DNA of 64,000 nucleotides from NCBI GenBank assembly GCA_016928835.1, contig JAFGJW010000003.1:1-64000 (forward strand), written 5' to 3'. A program made the position numbers and the translations under genes. Positions 36,539-44,293 of this stretch are shown piece by piece (the stretch's first letter is position 1; the number at the start of each line of letters is the position of its first letter). A model generated the notes under the pieces. The model saw only the letters and a list, made by a program, of their open reading frames with translations. It made no database searches and had not been told where the DNA came from. The DNA comes from Candidatus Woesearchaeota archaeon. GTDB taxonomy: Archaea > Nanobdellota > Nanobdellia > Woesearchaeales > GW2011-AR15.

Positions 36539-39500
36539 TTAAAGCAAATTTCCTGGTCCGACTCTCTGTTTTTTTTCTATTTCATTCTTAAGTTTTTTTA
36601 ATGAACGCTCTCTCTCATTCAATTCTTTTTCTCTGTTCTTTATATACCTCTTCTTCTCGTTTAGGAGTTCATGGAATCTTCCGACTGAAGCATTTTTCTC
36701 AATAAGAAGTTTTTCCTTCTGCTCAAGCACTCTGATATTCTTCCTATGTTTCTTCTCCTCTTCTGTGAGCTGCTTCAATTTATATTCAAGCTCCTCCTGT
36801 TTCCTGAGAAGAGCGCTTTCCTTTGATTTAAATTTAGTGGTCAGAGCAATCTCCTTTTCCTTAAAGACCTCTTCTTTTTGATTCAGCTCTTGTTCCTGTT
36901 TTTCCAATTTTTTCTCTAACTCTGCAAGTTCTGCAATTGTCTTCCTCAATTCTGCAGTTTCTGTATTTATCTCTTCTTTCCTTTTTTTGAGCTGGCTCTC
37001 CATATTAATGACAAGCATTTTATTTTTTTCAATATCTGCAAGCTGCTTAGTGTTCCTTTGAGTTAACTCCCTTAATTTCTCGATTTTCTTCTTAAAAGCC
37101 TCCTGCTCCTGCGCCAACTTAGCTTCTTTATCATCTATCTTATCTTGTAATAAATTAACCTTTTTGGCCTTTTTTTCTGTCTCATTCAGTTTGTGTGTGG
37201 CATCCTTTTCCTTATTTTGCAGCTTGTCTTTTTCCAGGGCGAGTTCAGCTTCTTTTACTGAAATTTGCTGTTCTTTTGATTTAAGTGATTTTTCATAATC
37301 TACCAGTTCCTTTCTTTTTGCATTTATATCATCAAGGAAAATCTTGATCTCATTTTCTTTCCTATTTATCTGAACTAGTTTTTTGCTAATTACTGCTTTG
37401 TCATTCTCAATCTTATCTGCTTTTTTATCTAGTTCAATCGCCAGCTTATCTATCTTTTTCTCCCTTTCAAAAAGCTGCTCTTCTGATTTTGTCAGGTTTA
37501 CATCCACCTCTTTGAGCTTCATCTCTGTAGAATTAATCTCCTCTCTCTGCTTCTCAACCTCTCTCATCTCCTGCTTTATCTTGACCTCCTCTTCTTTAAG
37601 TTTCTGCTGTTTTTTATCGAGAGTCTCTCGTAATTTGCCTAATCTAGTTTCTTCTTCAACAAGCTTCTGCTCCTTTGCTGTAAGCACTTTACCGCTCTCT
37701 TCTATTTTCACCAAAGTAGTATTCATATCATTCTTATCCTGCTCTACTATCTCTTCTCTTTTCTTCAGCTCCTGCTCTTCAAGGCCAAGTTCAAGCTCCT
37801 TTTGCTGTATCTCCTCTAGTTTACTTGTGAGGTGGCTATTTTTCTCCTCTATTTTATTCAGTTCCTCCTGGAACTTGCCTTTGTAATTTTCAAAATTTTG
37901 TTTTTCCTGGTTGAATCTTTCTAACTTGTCTAAATATTCAGCTTCTTTCTTCTCGAGCTTTTTTATGTTTTGTCTTAATTCTCTTTCCTCTTGTGCAGTA
38001 TTGGTCCTCTTTTCCCTTATGCTCTTCTCCAATTTCTCAAAACTTTTTCTTTTAGCCTCCAGCTCCCGGATAAGCCGTTTAATCTTCCTCTCCTGCGCTT
38101 CCAAATCTGAAATATGCTTTGTTAGTTCCAGGGCCTTGGTCTTAATTTCCTGCTCTTTATCATGCAGGTCGTTTTTCTTATCCTCAACTTGCTTTAACTC
38201 TCCCTCAATTGCTTTTTTCTTCTCACTAATCTCTTTTTCAACATTTTGTTTCTCACTATTCTTATCCTGTATTTTTAGTTTGACTGATTCAAGTTCCTTT
38301 TGTTTCTTGGTAATATCAGTATTGATAGATTCAAGTTTTTTCTCTCTTTCTTCAAATTTTGAGATTCTGTATTCCAAATCCAAACTTGCACTTCTTACTT
38401 CTTTCTCCTTGCCGTCGAGCTCTGTGTCTTTCTTCTGGATCTGTCTCTCTCTCTTTTTTAGGGATATTGCCTTTTGTCCCATTGTTTTGCGAATCTGCAA
38501 GAGCTTTAACTTGTCCTTTTTATTCTCCAAGCGATTAGCCTCAGCTTGCTTTTCCTTCACAGCAAGCTCCTTTTTTAGTCTGTCCAGCCCAAGTAGTTTC
38601 GAATCAAATTTCTCTTTATTTTCCTTTAATTTTTTCTCGATAGTAATGAGCGTAACCTCTTTTTCTCCGATCCTAGAATTCTGCTCCAGTATTTTTGCTC
38701 TTTCTACAGCTAGTTTTTCTCGCTCAGAATTAATGCTGTCTTTTTCCTTTTTAAGTCTGCTTTTTATATCATCCAGTTCTTTTATTTTGGAAGAAAGGGT
38801 TCGTTTTAAATCTCTGACCAATTGTTTAAGTTTAGTTTCATCAATATTCTGATTCTTAACTCTATCATGGAGCGATAATACTTTTGTATGCAAGGATTTA
38901 TTTTGTTCTTCCAGTCTTTTATAGTGCTTTTGACGCTCTTTTAAATCATTTTTCTGCTCCTTTATTGTTTCAGCACTTCCCTGCACTTTTTTCTGCTTAA
39001 TCTGTAAGTTATCTTCTTGTCTTTGGACAAGTCTTCCGGCCTTCTCAAGCTCCTTTTTTCTTGTTTCAAGTAAAATAAATTTTGACTCAATCTCTTTGTA
39101 CTTATTTTTTAGTTCCTCTTTTGCTTTCTGAATTGTCTCTTCTCTCAATAGAACATCGTGCTTAAGTTTTTTCACTTCAGACTCATTTTTCTGTAATGAT
39201 GATTCTAAATTCTCTTTCTCGCTACTAAGGCTTTTCAGTTTTGATTTATAGCTTGATATATCCTTATTTTGGTTCTCAATAACCTTCTCCTTTTCATTTA
39301 TATCTAATCTTAACTGTCTCATCACCTTCGATCTTTTTGCCAGAGTATTGCTAAAAACACTATTACTTTGTTCTAAAGCAGTATGTTTGATCTTTAAAGC
39401 ATCAAGCTCTCTTAGAGTGTTGTCTAGCGAATGCTGAACACCTTTTAGCTCATGTTGGAGCCCCCTTACTTCCAGCAGAGACTCTTTGTATTTTTCTGCA

Positions 39501-39991
39501 TCTGTCTTTACTACTGTTTTTTTCTTTTCTCTTGGTTTCTTTTCTGCTCTTGACTTTTCTTTTTGTTGAACAACTTTTAGTTTCAGTGGAACTAGTGTTT
39601 TCTTGGCTGTTTGTTTTTCTGCTCTGTCCAGTCTGGCTGCATACTTTTTCTTCTCTGTTTCAAGAACCGCTCCTATTTCACCAGGGTCAATCTCAGTCTT
39701 TTTGTGAAGTTCATCCAAGAAATAAAGCCATTCGCTATGCTCCCAGTTGCCTTTATGCTGCTTAACAAATTTTCTGCAGAGATTAATAATTTTTGATTTT
39801 GATATTGTCGGCTTCTGAAAGAATCTCTTTTTCTCATCTTCAAGCAAATTGCCGAGCTCTTGCTCTGCAAGGTCAATACCTTGCTCTCTGACTGTCCCTA
39901 TAAAAGAAAGCCAGTCCTGATGCTGCCACTCCCCATTATGTGTGTGGACAAAATCTCTTGCTAGACTAAGAAGTTTTAACCTCTTTTTCAT
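36539..39991 (-). CDS. Giant coiled-coil protein with tandem N-terminal repeats (1150 aa)
   Basis: The N-terminal about 115 residues hold two copies of a 50-residue domain: LARDFVHTHNGEWQHQDWL with GIDLAEQELGNLLEDEKKRF, then LCRKFVKQHKGNWEHSEWL with EIDPGEIGAVLETEKKKY. After a basic linker (about 115-160) a coiled coil of roughly 980 residues runs to the end. No ATPase motifs are present. The paired N-terminal domains may be a binding head. Transcription starts from a TATA box near 40030-40043 and runs into the 682-residue gene. As a straight coiled coil of about 980 residues (roughly 1.5 A per residue) it would span about 145 nm. Confidence 0.78.
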   Translation of the reverse strand: MKKRLKLLSLARDFVHTHNGEWQHQDWLSFIGTVREQGIDLAEQELGNLLEDEKKRFFQKPTISKSKIINLCRKFVKQHKGNWEHSEWLYFLDELHKKTEIDPGEIGAVLETEKKKYAARLDRAEKQTAKKTLVPLKLKVVQQKEKSRAEKKPREKKKTVVKTDAEKYKESLLEVRGLQHELKGVQHSLDNTLRELDALKIKHTALEQSNSVFSNTLAKRSKVMRQLRLDINEKEKVIENQNKDISSYKSKLKSLSSEKENLESSLQKNESEVKKLKHDVLLREETIQKAKEELKNKYKEIESKFILLETRKKELEKAGRLVQRQEDNLQIKQKKVQGSAETIKEQKNDLKERQKHYKRLEEQNKSLHTKVLSLHDRVKNQNIDETKLKQLVRDLKRTLSSKIKELDDIKSRLKKEKDSINSEREKLAVERAKILEQNSRIGEKEVTLITIEKKLKENKEKFDSKLLGLDRLKKELAVKEKQAEANRLENKKDKLKLLQIRKTMGQKAISLKKRERQIQKKDTELDGKEKEVRSASLDLEYRISKFEEREKKLESINTDITKKQKELESVKLKIQDKNSEKQNVEKEISEKKKAIEGELKQVEDKKNDLHDKEQEIKTKALELTKHISDLEAQERKIKRLIRELEAKRKSFEKLEKSIREKRTNTAQEERELRQNIKKLEKKEAEYLDKLERFNQEKQNFENYKGKFQEELNKIEEKNSHLTSKLEEIQQKELELGLEEQELKKREEIVEQDKNDMNTTLVKIEESGKVLTAKEQKLVEEETRLGKLRETLDKKQQKLKEEEVKIKQEMREVEKQREEINSTEMKLKEVDVNLTKSEEQLFEREKKIDKLAIELDKKADKIENDKAVISKKLVQINRKENEIKIFLDDINAKRKELVDYEKSLKSKEQQISVKEAELALEKDKLQNKEKDATHKLNETEKKAKKVNLLQDKIDDKEAKLAQEQEAFKKKIEKLRELTQRNTKQLADIEKNKMLVINMESQLKKRKEEINTETAELRKTIAELAELEKKLEKQEQELNQKEEVFKEKEIALTTKFKSKESALLRKQEELEYKLKQLTEEEKKHRKNIRVLEQKEKLLIEKNASVGRFHELLNEKKRYIKNREKELNERERSLKKLKNEIEKKQRVGPGNLL

Positions 39992-40500: not shown

Positions 40501-42603
40501 ATGGCCAAAAATAATTTTGCTTTTAAAACTACTAAGGATCTTCCTGTTGCAAAGAAGATTATTGACAGAGTCATCGGCCAAGACAAAGCTGTTGATGTCA
40601 TGAAAAAAGCTGCGCAACAGAGGAGGCATGTTCTATTGATAGGTGAGCCTGGAACAGGAAAATCAATGCTTGGGCTTGCACTAACTGAGATGCTTCCAAA
40701 AGAAAAACTTGTTGATGTAGTTGCCTTTCCAAACCCGAATGATGATCACCAGCCGTTAATAAGGTCAATGCCCGCAGGAAAAGGAAGAGAATATGTTCTT
40801 AAGTCTAAATTGCAGAGCATGTCAATGCTTAAGAACCAGAATTTAATTTTCATTATCTTCCTTATTTTTGGTATTGTGTTTCCCATTTATTACTGGAGAG
40901 CCAATCCCTTGAACTTAGGAGAGACTGCGAATGCTATCATCTTCTCTGCATCTATAGTAACAAGTATCATTGTTCTTGCACTAATAGTGGTTTCTACTAA
41001 CCTTAACAAAAGAATGGAAAAGCAATCGCTCGTGCCAAAGGTTATAGTAGACAATTATGGAAAAAAGCAGGCACCATTTTTTGATGCAACAGGTGCACAT
41101 GCTGGCGCATTGTTAGGAGATGTACTTCATGACCCCTTTCAAACGTTTTCATATATTAGTATATTAAAATGTATACTAAAAGAAAATATAAATGATGAAC
41201 AAATGGCACAAGCACTTGACAAGTACTGGCACAAGCCTTATATACATAAAGAGTTTAAACAGGATAAAAAGTATGAAGCAGTTTTCCTTCCCAAAAATGA
41301 GCTTAACGTAATGGGAGAGAACAATAATCTTGTTGCTCCTGTTGAGGTTTTATCATCAAATAGATATGATTACAAAGGTGAAATGATAAAACTCAAAACA
41401 ACGCAACAAAAAGAATTACTTGTAACTCCAGAACATAAAATTGCAGTTCAAAGACAGGGGGAAACTCAGTATATTGAAGCTTGTAAATTAAAAAAAGGCG
41501 ATACTGTGCTATCTTTAAATGAAAATATGATTATCGATGAACAGGATATAATTGATACTTATGATCTTAGACAACAAGAACAGTGTAGATTATATTATCA
41601 ATATTTAGAAATCAAAAAACAAAATCCAGCATGGGGATATAAGAGAATTGCAAAATCAATGGGGCAAAAAATTGGAAAGACTCGCTGGTGGCATGCTGAA
41701 AAACATATTCCTGTTCCTATTCAAACTGCTAATTGGCTTAAAGAACAGGGATTATTACCTTTAACTTATGATAACCCAAACCTTTCAATAATTGCTAAGA
41801 TTCTCGGAGCAACTTTTGGTGATGGCGGCATATTTGAAAATTTAAATGGAATATTTCTTTCAAGTAAAGAAAAGTGCAATGTAGAAGAATTTGGGTCTGA
41901 TTTGGAGACTATTTTTGGATTGAAAAAAGGAGAAAATTCAAGAATAATTGAGGGCGGAGAGTTTGGTCATTCTTGGTGTTATCAAAACACAAATAGAAAC
42001 ATTATTAGATTTTTTATTGCTTTAAAATCTCCCGTAGGGAAAAAATCTTCTCAAAATATTATTATTCCAGCATGGATTTATAGGAATAAAAATCTTAAAA
42101 TGGAATTTTTTAGCTCATTGCTTGGAAGCGAAGCAGGAGTGCCTGGTGTACATATTTCAAAAACTCAACTAAATACCTTTGATTTTGCTATTACAGGAGA
42201 AGAAGGTTTAGAAAATAATAGAATCAACTTCCTAGAAAAAATTAAGGACTATCTTAATTCAGTAAATATTAAAACAGGCAAAATCTCAACAAGAATTGTA
42301 AAAACAAAAAAATCAGATAAAGGGTCTATTTTATATCGATTCTTAATTTCAACTGAATTTCAGAATATGATTAATTTTTCTAAAGAATGTAAGCTAAACT
42401 ATTGTAACTATAAAAGAGATAAGTTAACAGAAGTACTTAATGAATTTAGAATCATTAAGAAAGAAAGATATGAATTTATGTTAAAAAACGGGATGGGTGC
42501 AGAAACAGCGATGAAGAAATTGAACTTAACTCCAAAAGCCCTCTATGAAATCCTGAATGACACTGAGTTTATCGTCAAAGAACCAGAGGCGGCTTATACA
42601 TGA
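40501..42603 (+). CDS. lonB: LonB protease N-terminal half fused to intein N-half with LAGLIDADG endonuclease
   Basis: 700 residues. Residues 1-214 are the start of archaeal LonB: RVIGQDKAVDVMKKAAQQRR, Walker A GEPGTGKS (48-55), two membrane helices (about 115-132 and 142-166) and TGAHAGALLGDVLHDPFQ. In LonB that sequence should continue [12 protein letters not shown]. Instead residue 215 (Thr) opens an intein: block B is LLVTPEHKIAVQ with KLKKGDTVLSL, and a DOD homing endonuclease has LGATFGDGG (about 436) and FSSLLGSEAG (about 540). The frame stops at 42601-42603, in an ATGA overlap with the next gene, before the intein C-terminal blocks. Those blocks and the rest of LonB are at 42929. It can work only if spliced in trans, or as a truncated ATPase half. 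Confidence 0.9.
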   Translation: MAKNNFAFKTTKDLPVAKKIIDRVIGQDKAVDVMKKAAQQRRHVLLIGEPGTGKSMLGLALTEMLPKEKLVDVVAFPNPNDDHQPLIRSMPAGKGREYVLKSKLQSMSMLKNQNLIFIIFLIFGIVFPIYYWRANPLNLGETANAIIFSASIVTSIIVLALIVVSTNLNKRMEKQSLVPKVIVDNYGKKQAPFFDATGAHAGALLGDVLHDPFQTFSYISILKCILKENINDEQMAQALDKYWHKPYIHKEFKQDKKYEAVFLPKNELNVMGENNNLVAPVEVLSSNRYDYKGEMIKLKTTQQKELLVTPEHKIAVQRQGETQYIEACKLKKGDTVLSLNENMIIDEQDIIDTYDLRQQEQCRLYYQYLEIKKQNPAWGYKRIAKSMGQKIGKTRWWHAEKHIPVPIQTANWLKEQGLLPLTYDNPNLSIIAKILGATFGDGGIFENLNGIFLSSKEKCNVEEFGSDLETIFGLKKGENSRIIEGGEFGHSWCYQNTNRNIIRFFIALKSPVGKKSSQNIIIPAWIYRNKNLKMEFFSSLLGSEAGVPGVHISKTQLNTFDFAITGEEGLENNRINFLEKIKDYLNSVNIKTGKISTRIVKTKKSDKGSILYRFLISTEFQNMINFSKECKLNYCNYKRDKLTEVLNEFRIIKKERYEFMLKNGMGAETAMKKLNLTPKALYEILNDTEFIVKEPEAAYT

Positions 42604-42932
42604 AACACATTGCTTGTTGCGGATTAGATTGTTATGAATGCCCGGCATATATTGCGACTCAGGAAGATTCAGATGCTAAAAGAAAAGTAACTGCGGAACT
42701 CTGGACAGAGGAATTTAAAACAGAAATAAAACCAGGGGATGTTAATTGTGATGGATGCAGATCTAATGGTGAAAGATTTAGTCACTGCAATGTATGCGAG
42801 ATAAGGAAATGCGTTTATGAAAAGAATTTGAAAAATTGTGCATTTTGTACAGATTATGCATGTGCAAAATTAAACGATTTTTTTATAATGGCTCCTGAGG
42901 CAAAATCAAATTTGGAAAATATCAGAAAATGA
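42600..42932 (+). CDS. DUF3795 Cys-rich protein encoded between the two split-intein halves
   Basis: A complete 110-residue DUF3795 protein: [53 protein letters not shown], with about 14 cysteines likely to bind zinc or Fe-S. It has its own ATG (overlapping the upstream TGA), a purine-rich AGAGGCGG 8-15 nt before it, and a stop overlapping the next ATG. It shares no sequence with inteins or Lon. Its function is unknown; relatives are usually free-standing single genes in anaerobic archaea and clostridia. Its position inside a split protease gene is exceptional. Confidence 0.88.
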
Positions 42933-44293
42933 AATTCCAGACAGAAAAAATCACAAAGATTGAAAAGATTCCTTATAAAGGAAAGGTCTATAATGTTACA
43001 ACTGAATCTGGTAATGTTATAGTGAATGGCATATTATGCTCTAATTCAGGAGGTCTTGGCACACCTGCACATGAGAGGGTGGTTGCTGGTATGATTCACA
43101 AAGCTCATATGGGTGTTTTATTTGTTGATGAGATTGCCACATTACACCCTGCCACGCAGCAGGAATTGCTAACAGCTCTGCAAGAGGGAAAATATGCAAT
43201 AACAGGCCAGAGTGAGAGATCAGCAGGAGCTATGGTAAGGACAGAGCCTGTACCATGCAACTTTATCTTGGTTGCAGCTGGCAATTATGAGACAATCAAA
43301 CATATGCACCCTGCACTGCGTTCAAGAATCAGAGGCTATGGTTATGAAGTGTATATGGATGAGACTATACCAGACACTCCGGAAAACAGGAATAAGATTG
43401 CAATATTTGTGGCCCAGGAGATTGAGAAAGATGGAAAGATACCTCATTTCTCAAAGGACGCGGTGGATGAGATAGTCGAGGAAGCAAGAAGAAGAGCAAA
43501 TAGAAAAGGGCATCTAACACTGCGATTGAGGGATTTGGGAGGACTGGTAAGAGCTGCAGGAGATCTTGCCATGGAAGAAAAGAAGAAACTTGTGCAACCT
43601 GAGCATATCACAAAAGCAAAGAAGATTGCACGCACACTTGAGCAGCAGATTGCTGATAAATTCATTGAAAGGAAAAAAGAATATGAAGTAATCCGAACCA
43701 AAGGAATACAAGTTGGCAGAGTTAATGGTCTTGCAGTCATGGGCGGAGGCGCTGCTTTTTCTGGAATCATTTTACCAATTGAGGCAGAGGTCACAGTAGG
43801 AGGGAAAGAAAATAAAGTAGTTGCCACAGGCAAACTGGGTGAGATAGCCCAAGAGGCAATCAAGAATGTAACAGCTATTGTTAAAAGATATTTTGGGGAT
43901 GACATAAAAGAAAAATATGATATCTATGTGCAGTTTTTGCAGACTTATGAAGGTGTTGAAGGAGATTCAGCAAGCATAGCAGTTGCTACAGGTATTATAT
44001 CTGCTTTGAAAAATGTTCCAGTCAAGCAGGATTACGCACTCACTGGAAGTCTTTCTGTTAGGGGGGAAGTTCTACCGGTTGGTGGGGTAACTGCTAAGGT
44101 TGAAGCAGCGATAGAGGCCGGCTTAAAATATGTTATTGTTCCAAAATCTAATATGAAGGATATTATTATTGATAGTGAAAAGCTGAAGAACATAAATATT
44201 ATTCCAGTTGAGACTATATCTGAAGTCCTGGAAAAGGCGCTTGACTGGAAAAGAAGTATTAAGATATTAAATAAGATTAAAAGTTATAGCTAA
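42929..44293 (+). CDS. lonB: Intein C-half fused to LonB protease C-terminal half
   Basis: 454 residues. Residues 1-39 are an intein C-fragment: [19 protein letters not shown] is block F and CSN the end of block G, with Asn39 last and Ser as +1 residue. From residue 40 (base 43046) LonB resumes with [13 protein letters not shown], then Walker [11 protein letters not shown] (D67, E68), the arginine-containing ATPase end, and the Lon protease domain with Ser347 in EGDSAS and Lys390 in [10 protein letters not shown]. The 39-residue length equals that of natural split-intein C-fragments. An in-frame stop at 42896 rules out a longer frame. Joined with residues 1-214 of the first half, LonB would be 629 residues, a normal size. 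Confidence 0.9.

Follow-up and report, generated by a model that had tools for sequence, protein, structure and literature searches.

Cellular enzymes that are restored by protein trans-splicing are known from the split inteins of Nanoarchaeum equitans Pol (Neq Pol) and cyanobacterial DnaE, in which the C-part is short, the N-part has no endonuclease and the two halves of the host gene lie far apart. The Neq Pol split intein is named in PMC8861304. PMC7891396 describes a different arrangement in AceL NrdHF, a fractured gene on a phage-like contig in which a GIY-YIG endonuclease separates the two halves and the intein is of class 3. Here we analyze the gene for the cellular protease LonB in Candidatus Woesearchaeota archaeon (assembly GCA_016928835.1), located on a stretch of 64,000 nucleotides (contig JAFGJW010000003.1, positions 1 to 64,000, forward strand) that is referred to below as the window. 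In the sequence, a split intein divides this lonB into two genes between which a DUF3795 gene is inserted, and it is very probable that trans-splicing would join the two halves into a LonB of 629 residues.

The locus comprises three genes, with the following features:

40501-42603, forward strand: gene 1, an open reading frame (ORF) of 700 residues encoding LonB 1-214 and the intein N-part with a LAGLIDADG-type endonuclease
40501-41142, forward strand: LonB 1-214, the N-extein, with Walker A and membrane helices; C-terminal end HDPFQ
41143-41517, forward strand: splicing region of the intein N-part, residues 1-125, identified by profile matches; residue 1 is Thr
41362-41367, forward strand: intein Arg74-Tyr75; residue 75 covaries with residue 1
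41425-41436, forward strand: TPEH, block B, intein residues 95-98; T95 and H98 are kept in homologues
41518-42600, forward strand: LAGLIDADG-type endonuclease domain on the N-part, with a resolvase-like helix-turn-helix (HTH) at its end (residues 429-470)
42600-42603, forward strand: ATGA, stop of gene 1 and start of gene 2
42600-42932, forward strand: gene 2, DUF3795, 110 residues; PF12675 66.6 bits, cut-off 22.6
42929-42932, forward strand: ATGA, stop of gene 2 and start of gene 3
42929-44293, forward strand: gene 3, an ORF of 454 residues encoding the 39-residue intein C-part and LonB 215-629, plus stop
42929-43045, forward strand: 39-residue C-part of the intein, with Ser-Asn at its end; relatives have the same C-part
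43046-44293, forward strand: LonB 215-629 from Ser+1, the Walker B half and protease domain (PF05362)

A preliminary description of this DNA had placed the break in LonB exactly between HDPFQ and SGGLGT, and this placement was borne out: gene 1 matches positions 3-196 of the LonB model TIGR00764 and gene 3 matches positions 195-606, which makes the halves complementary, and in the intact LonB loci of relatives HDP(F/L)Q-(S/T)GGLGT is ungapped in 26 of 26 cases. The make-up that it had given for gene 1 agrees with the TIGR00764 match and with a fold match of the AlphaFold2 (AF2) model, that of gene 3 with the C-part shared by relatives, and that of the intact gene between them with PF12675; likewise, the three ORFs do occupy three frames joined by two exact ATGA overlaps. 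Gene 3 by itself scores 646 bits against TIGR00764, above the cut-off of 516.6. As in a split-intein gene, two genes that each join an extein to an intein part jointly make up a whole intein and a whole LonB. The preliminary description had also cautioned against a second intact lonB, which was searched for and not found in this genome (1.53 Mb, 20 contigs, 95% complete); there was no other LonB match in the assembly, where the sole other Lon_C match (36.5 bits) lies in a frame of 568 residues. With complementary halves and no second LonB match, trans-splicing remains the best reading of how active LonB would be formed.

The same break was found well beyond this genome. Gene 3 together with the intein C-part was recovered in G006, G016 and G017 among 60 genomes, and in G016 and G017 the two LonB genes share a 4-nucleotide overlap with no gene between. 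Among 352 genomes of the order, 29 gave strong matches to the N-part (E below 1e-100), one of them being the window's own, and 27 of these 29 loci are fractured, with a separate C-part ORF whose start is possible 37-39 residues before SGGLGT and is ATG in all but G102 (TTG); the remaining two are G149, in which the N and C parts lie on separate contigs, and G153, in which the C-part ORF is broken. At the class level, a split C-part was present in at least 25 of the 255 genomes with a LonB match. Split lonB also occurs in Heimdallarchaeum endolithica (L085, CP084167.1), which is a complete Asgard chromosome, and on a Micrarchaeota contig, while a Diapherotrites contig ends within the intein N-part. 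In all, 40 loci in 40 genomes, including that of the window, yielded both halves (L182 was left out of this table); the search pattern for these C-parts required Asn-Ser, and the rows are therefore uninformative on those two residues. A search of G354 at E<=1e-20 gave no N half of LonB, and in G397 none lies between the C-part and the contig end upstream of it. SGGLG occurred in no protein among the best 120 of 210 homologues, and the names on homologous genes, where given (ATP-binding protein, hypothetical protein, Lon protease), do not signal the split. Each of the 26 order genomes that were searched for further copies had a single LonB match (E<=1e-20), and a second, more distant match was present in the genomes of Heimdallarchaeum (40% identity) and the Micrarchaeota (49%).

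The recurrence of the two-gene layout in 39 other genomes makes misassembly or chance fracture very unlikely, and the presence of the same break in 39 other archaeal genomes indicates that the fractured lonB is likely a long-lived way to run a cellular enzyme as two genes, not a sequencing accident. The fracture is a clade-wide arrangement, mostly without an intervening gene. Related genomes, which the preliminary description had proposed to search, hold the two-gene fracture as well as unsplit LonB inteins, whereas the gene order with DUF3795 was seen in the window's genome only.

When the window's DUF3795 protein was used as a query (E<=1e-8) against 241 order genomes, the genome of the window itself was the single one with a match, in a search that distant DUF3795 proteins could escape; on this account the gene likely arrived recently. 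Its closest relatives are at most 59% identical and mostly metagenomic, with the organism-named ones among the best 120 listed being bacterial, and the gene appears to have come from outside, likely from a bacterial source. The GC content is 0.34 for the DUF3795 gene, 0.29-0.31 for the intein and 0.39-0.41 for LonB. The insertion is a local novelty of the window locus.

The splicing residues were examined in 117 homologues, which are the best 120 of 210 with three that lack the HDPxQ anchor left out. Intein residue 1 was Cys in 53, Thr in 34 and Ser in 30 (Cys or Ser in 83 of the 117) with no other letter, and T95 and H98 were present in all 117, while residues 3-7 were highly variable. Residue 75 was Gln, His or Asn in 53 of 53 sequences with Cys1 and Tyr in 63 of 64 with Ser1 or Thr1, and it tracked residue 1. 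When independent pairs were drawn from a tree built on the endonuclease region, with the splicing region left out, the two residues changed together in 9.68 of 10 (p ~0.002 by a sign test). Column 75 was picked after inspection, with a scan of the remaining columns as the control, in which the next-best of 451 columns gave 7.34 pairs in the same and 0.21 in the opposite direction (net 7.1). On the tree, the nucleophile at residue 1 changed 17 times among Cys, Ser and Thr. Additionally, Asn precedes Ser+1 in 27 of the 27 C-parts that were recovered without requiring Asn. Between the window and G006, dN/dS was 0.37 for the intein N-part, 0.10 for the endonuclease, and 0.03 for the intein C-part, compared with 0.15 and 0.07 for the two parts of LonB, and it was below 1 in every computable segment; these values are rough because dS is high, and is saturated in many segments of other pairs. 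Thr as residue 1 was also seen in the unsplit LonB inteins P0164 and P0165, and Thr1 therefore predates, or is independent of, the fracture. Two further ideas were rejected: the missing penultimate His as the mark of a dead intein, as 50 unsplit LonB inteins end in Lys-Asn or Ser-Asn too, and the Cys at C-part position -3 as a new nucleophile, as this position is Val in the seven rows with a free endonuclease and Ala in Micrarchaeota.

The splicing region of the N-part gave a profile match to PDB 2jmz (E 2.6e-10), and the AF2 model of gene 1 gave a fold match to intein and endonuclease structures. On this model, gene 1 is predicted to have both the fold and the acidic catalytic motif of a LAGLIDADG homing endonuclease, in which GDGG is invariant (26 of 26), and the HTH at the end of the domain is a weak match to gamma-delta resolvase (E 0.04-0.45). 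The fusion of the endonuclease to the N-part and the Thr at intein residue 1 are additions to what was first observed at this locus. A similar endonuclease domain occurs in the inteins of RtcB-like proteins (NF038162, which matches gene 1 residues 408-648 with E 8.3e-25).

In the mechanism that we propose, the intein halves would meet after translation, excise themselves and ligate LonB (214 + 415 = 629 residues). The hydroxyl of intein Thr1 would attack the carbonyl of Gln214 in an acyl shift, the acyl chain would pass to Ser+1, and Asn39 of the C-part would cyclise, with formation of a Gln-Ser peptide bond. The ATGA overlaps would couple translation of the three genes, and DUF3795 would be a late passenger without a role in splicing.

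Several observations weigh against this interpretation. On the N-part, PF14890 scores 28.6 bits, under its cut-off of 35.8, and TIGR01445 scores 23.7 bits, just under its cut-off of 24.5; the N-part splicing region is the least constrained segment (dN/dS 0.17-0.39); the C-part ORF of G153 stops at the splice junction; G250 has an intact LonB (a frame of 622 residues) beside the split one (L133, L147); DUF3795 lies between lonB halves in this genome and assembly only; and Thr1 departs from the Cys or Ser that the available portion of PMC7664689 names as the first residue of class 1 inteins. The loose conservation of the N-terminal intein region would also suit a dead intein, in which case LonB would function as two separate chains held together around what is left of the intein; with the break between Walker A and Walker B of a ring ATPase such an assembly of fragments is conceivable. 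We consider this unlikely, because the restriction of residue 1 to Cys, Ser or Thr in 117 of 117 homologues, its coupling to residue 75 and the terminal Asn before Ser+1 in 27 of 27 C-parts would not persist in a dead intein.

A draft genome of 20 contigs, a DUF3795 insert that was seen in no other genome and the broken C-part of G153 might instead point to an assembly error or a decaying pseudogene, yet this explanation is exceedingly improbable in view of the fracture in 39 other genomes, including the complete Heimdallarchaeum chromosome, the three open frames with their exact joints and the low dN/dS. It could also be argued that DUF3795, a small Cys-rich protein that is placed and coupled exactly between the lonB halves, controls or aids LonB splicing here; however, 18 of the 29 loci with a fused endonuclease have a 4-nucleotide overlap and no gene between, unrelated genes take that position at other loci, and DUF3795 was matched in a single order genome, all of which renders such a role highly improbable. 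Trans-splicing past a passenger that takes no part in it is thus the explanation that we retain.

Relatives display the LonB intein at several stages. At the unsplit stage, 50 of the 53 proteins found with the LonB of Nanobdella aerobiophila carry an intein at this position within one uninterrupted ORF, and unsplit LonB inteins include those of Pyrococcus, Thermococcus, Archaeoglobus and Micrarchaeia. At the fused-endonuclease stage (29 loci, of which 27 are from the order, plus L085 and L096), the halves share a 4-nucleotide overlap in 18 (TTGA in G102, otherwise ATGA; two only if a later ATG is taken), lie between -11 and +3 nucleotides in four, and are separated by a gap of 224-325 nucleotides in seven. 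The gap of the window is occupied by DUF3795 and that of G006 by a remnant that is nucleotidyltransferase-like by eye, while the other five hold a small gene of at most 75 residues, which is shortened or broken in three of its five LonB loci. This small gene belongs to a family (L198-L205) of ~70-116 residues that was matched in 22 of 336 order genomes and lies elsewhere in 17 of these, and it is therefore a wandering gene; the genomic context was read for seven occurrences, and two members tested had no Pfam match. At the free-endonuclease stage, measured at seven loci (G355, G356, G360, G412, G581, G585 and G628) and resembled by G566 and others, the N and C genes are 1.07-5.36 kb apart. TrmB regulators lie inside the gap in three loci, and opposite-strand ORFs in some. 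Finally, no intact endonuclease is present between the halves in G281, G353, G359 and G365, with remnants visible in G281 and G365.

Other LonB inteins were also noted. The split C-part of G250 ends in His-Asn, and L177 (G080) and L178 (G277), from the same order, have another type of unsplit LonB intein in ORFs of 1053 and 1056 residues, respectively, ending in Thr-His-Asn. A further intein seems present in the LonB N half of L092/L150, L072, L077 and P0107, so that some lonB genes may hold two inteins; in L092 it sits after the Walker A motif (ORF of 927 residues).

In a tree of 69 inteins (a quick tree with no bootstrap, from which four loci without an intact endonuclease and 17 of the 50 unsplit rows, being near-copies, were omitted), all 36 split rows form one clade (support 99 in the SH-like approximate likelihood ratio test, SH-aLRT) beside unsplit Micrarchaeia-type inteins, and therefore one fracture event suffices. 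Within it, the seven free-endonuclease rows (95) and the 29 fused rows (89) form subclades, and the presence or absence of a passenger requires 6 changes among the fused rows. On this reading of the tree, a single break, 39 residues ahead of its end, would have divided an unsplit archaeal LonB intein and left the endonuclease on the N-part; in the sister branch the endonuclease would have turned into a free gene, and more genes would have entered the gap. The LonB tree, which omits 3 of the 26 intact LonB loci (Thr+1, missed by the pattern), separates the window, G006 and G247 though in the intein tree the three group together (support 100), and its split rows demand 16 label changes, at least 6 of them forced by starred branches. 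In approximately unbiased (AU) tests, a single clade of split rows in the LonB tree was not rejected (p 0.127), nor was the window with G006 (p 0.257). These comparisons suggest transfer of the split intein between hosts near the window, with an incongruence that is not significant. Furthermore, the Heimdallarchaeum intein pairs with a Micrarchaeota intein (support 99), which suggests inter-phylum transfer; among 99 genomes of the Heimdallarchaeum phylum, the split C-part was found in Heimdallarchaeum alone (among the matches listed), which fits transfer into that lineage.

The gap geometry and the turnover of passengers raise a further possibility, which we regard as doubtful: the split intein may be a mobile element with a cargo bay, and homing by means of its endonuclease would transfer the entire stretch, passengers included, to a lonB that lacks the intein. 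The fractured intein would then let any gene sit between the halves regardless of frame; DUF3795, the small gene, the nucleotidyltransferase-like remnant, TrmB and others would represent successive stages of loading and loss; and a host would lose the element only by exact restoration of lonB. If this were true, intein homing would move passenger genes along with the element.

With respect to the surroundings of the locus, an ORF of 1150 residues (36539-39991, reverse strand), Lys/Glu-rich and coiled-coil-like by eye, lies just upstream of lonB, and an Rfam scan of the window gave nothing at the gathering score.

Taken together, one gene displays a series that runs from the unsplit intein through fractured and coupled halves, passengers, a free endonuclease and halves kilobases apart to loci with no intact endonuclease, and this natural series makes the origin and persistence of split inteins directly testable. 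In dozens of archaea, most of them uncultured, and also in a member of the Asgard group, a protease central to the cell seems to need protein ligation for its activity. The switching of residue 1 among Cys, Ser and Thr together with residue 75 also offers ready variants for splicing with oxygen nucleophiles and a source of new split inteins.

Compared with described inteins, that of the window has the other marks of class 1 (TxxH in block B, a terminal Asn and Cys, Ser or Thr at +1), and it would work like a class 1 intein, although given Thr1 it is not filed there. Class 3 (Trp-Cys-Thr, block F Cys) was rejected, as the C-part has Asn in the Cys position (by eye). According to PMC10189870, Ser1/Ser+1 inteins with motif NX have a His after Arg/Lys near Ser1 that goes with Ser1. 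The likeness to our case is in the oxygen nucleophiles at both junctions and in a position after Arg/Lys that is tied to the nucleophile, and by analogy R74-Y75 may correspond to that position; the pairing of residues, however, is reversed here, with Tyr accompanying Ser1 or Thr1 and Gln or His accompanying Cys1. The unsplit LonB inteins of Pyrococcus, Thermococcus, Archaeoglobus, Nanobdella aerobiophila and Micrarchaeia share the insertion site (HDPxQ / SGG), mostly an endonuclease of similar length, and Lys-Asn or Ser-Asn before Ser+1 with the split forms, but they are encoded in one ORF of ~930-1160 residues, and the split forms are a separate clade. With AceL NrdHF the window locus has in common a host gene broken at the endonuclease site of its intein and a third gene between the halves, while it differs in being a cellular protease with the endonuclease on the N-part and DUF3795 in between; a free-standing endonuclease gene between the halves is absent in the window and present in the seven measured relatives of the same class. 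With Neq Pol and DnaE it shares a cellular enzyme, a short C-part and, as predicted for LonB, trans-splicing. Among the titles and abstract beginnings listed from the open-access literature, we found no account of a fractured LonB in cellular archaea, of its N-part endonuclease, or of its passengers and stages. Split inteins and fractured genes are already known; what appears to be new is the fracture of LonB in cellular archaea together with its N-part endonuclease, its passengers and its stages.

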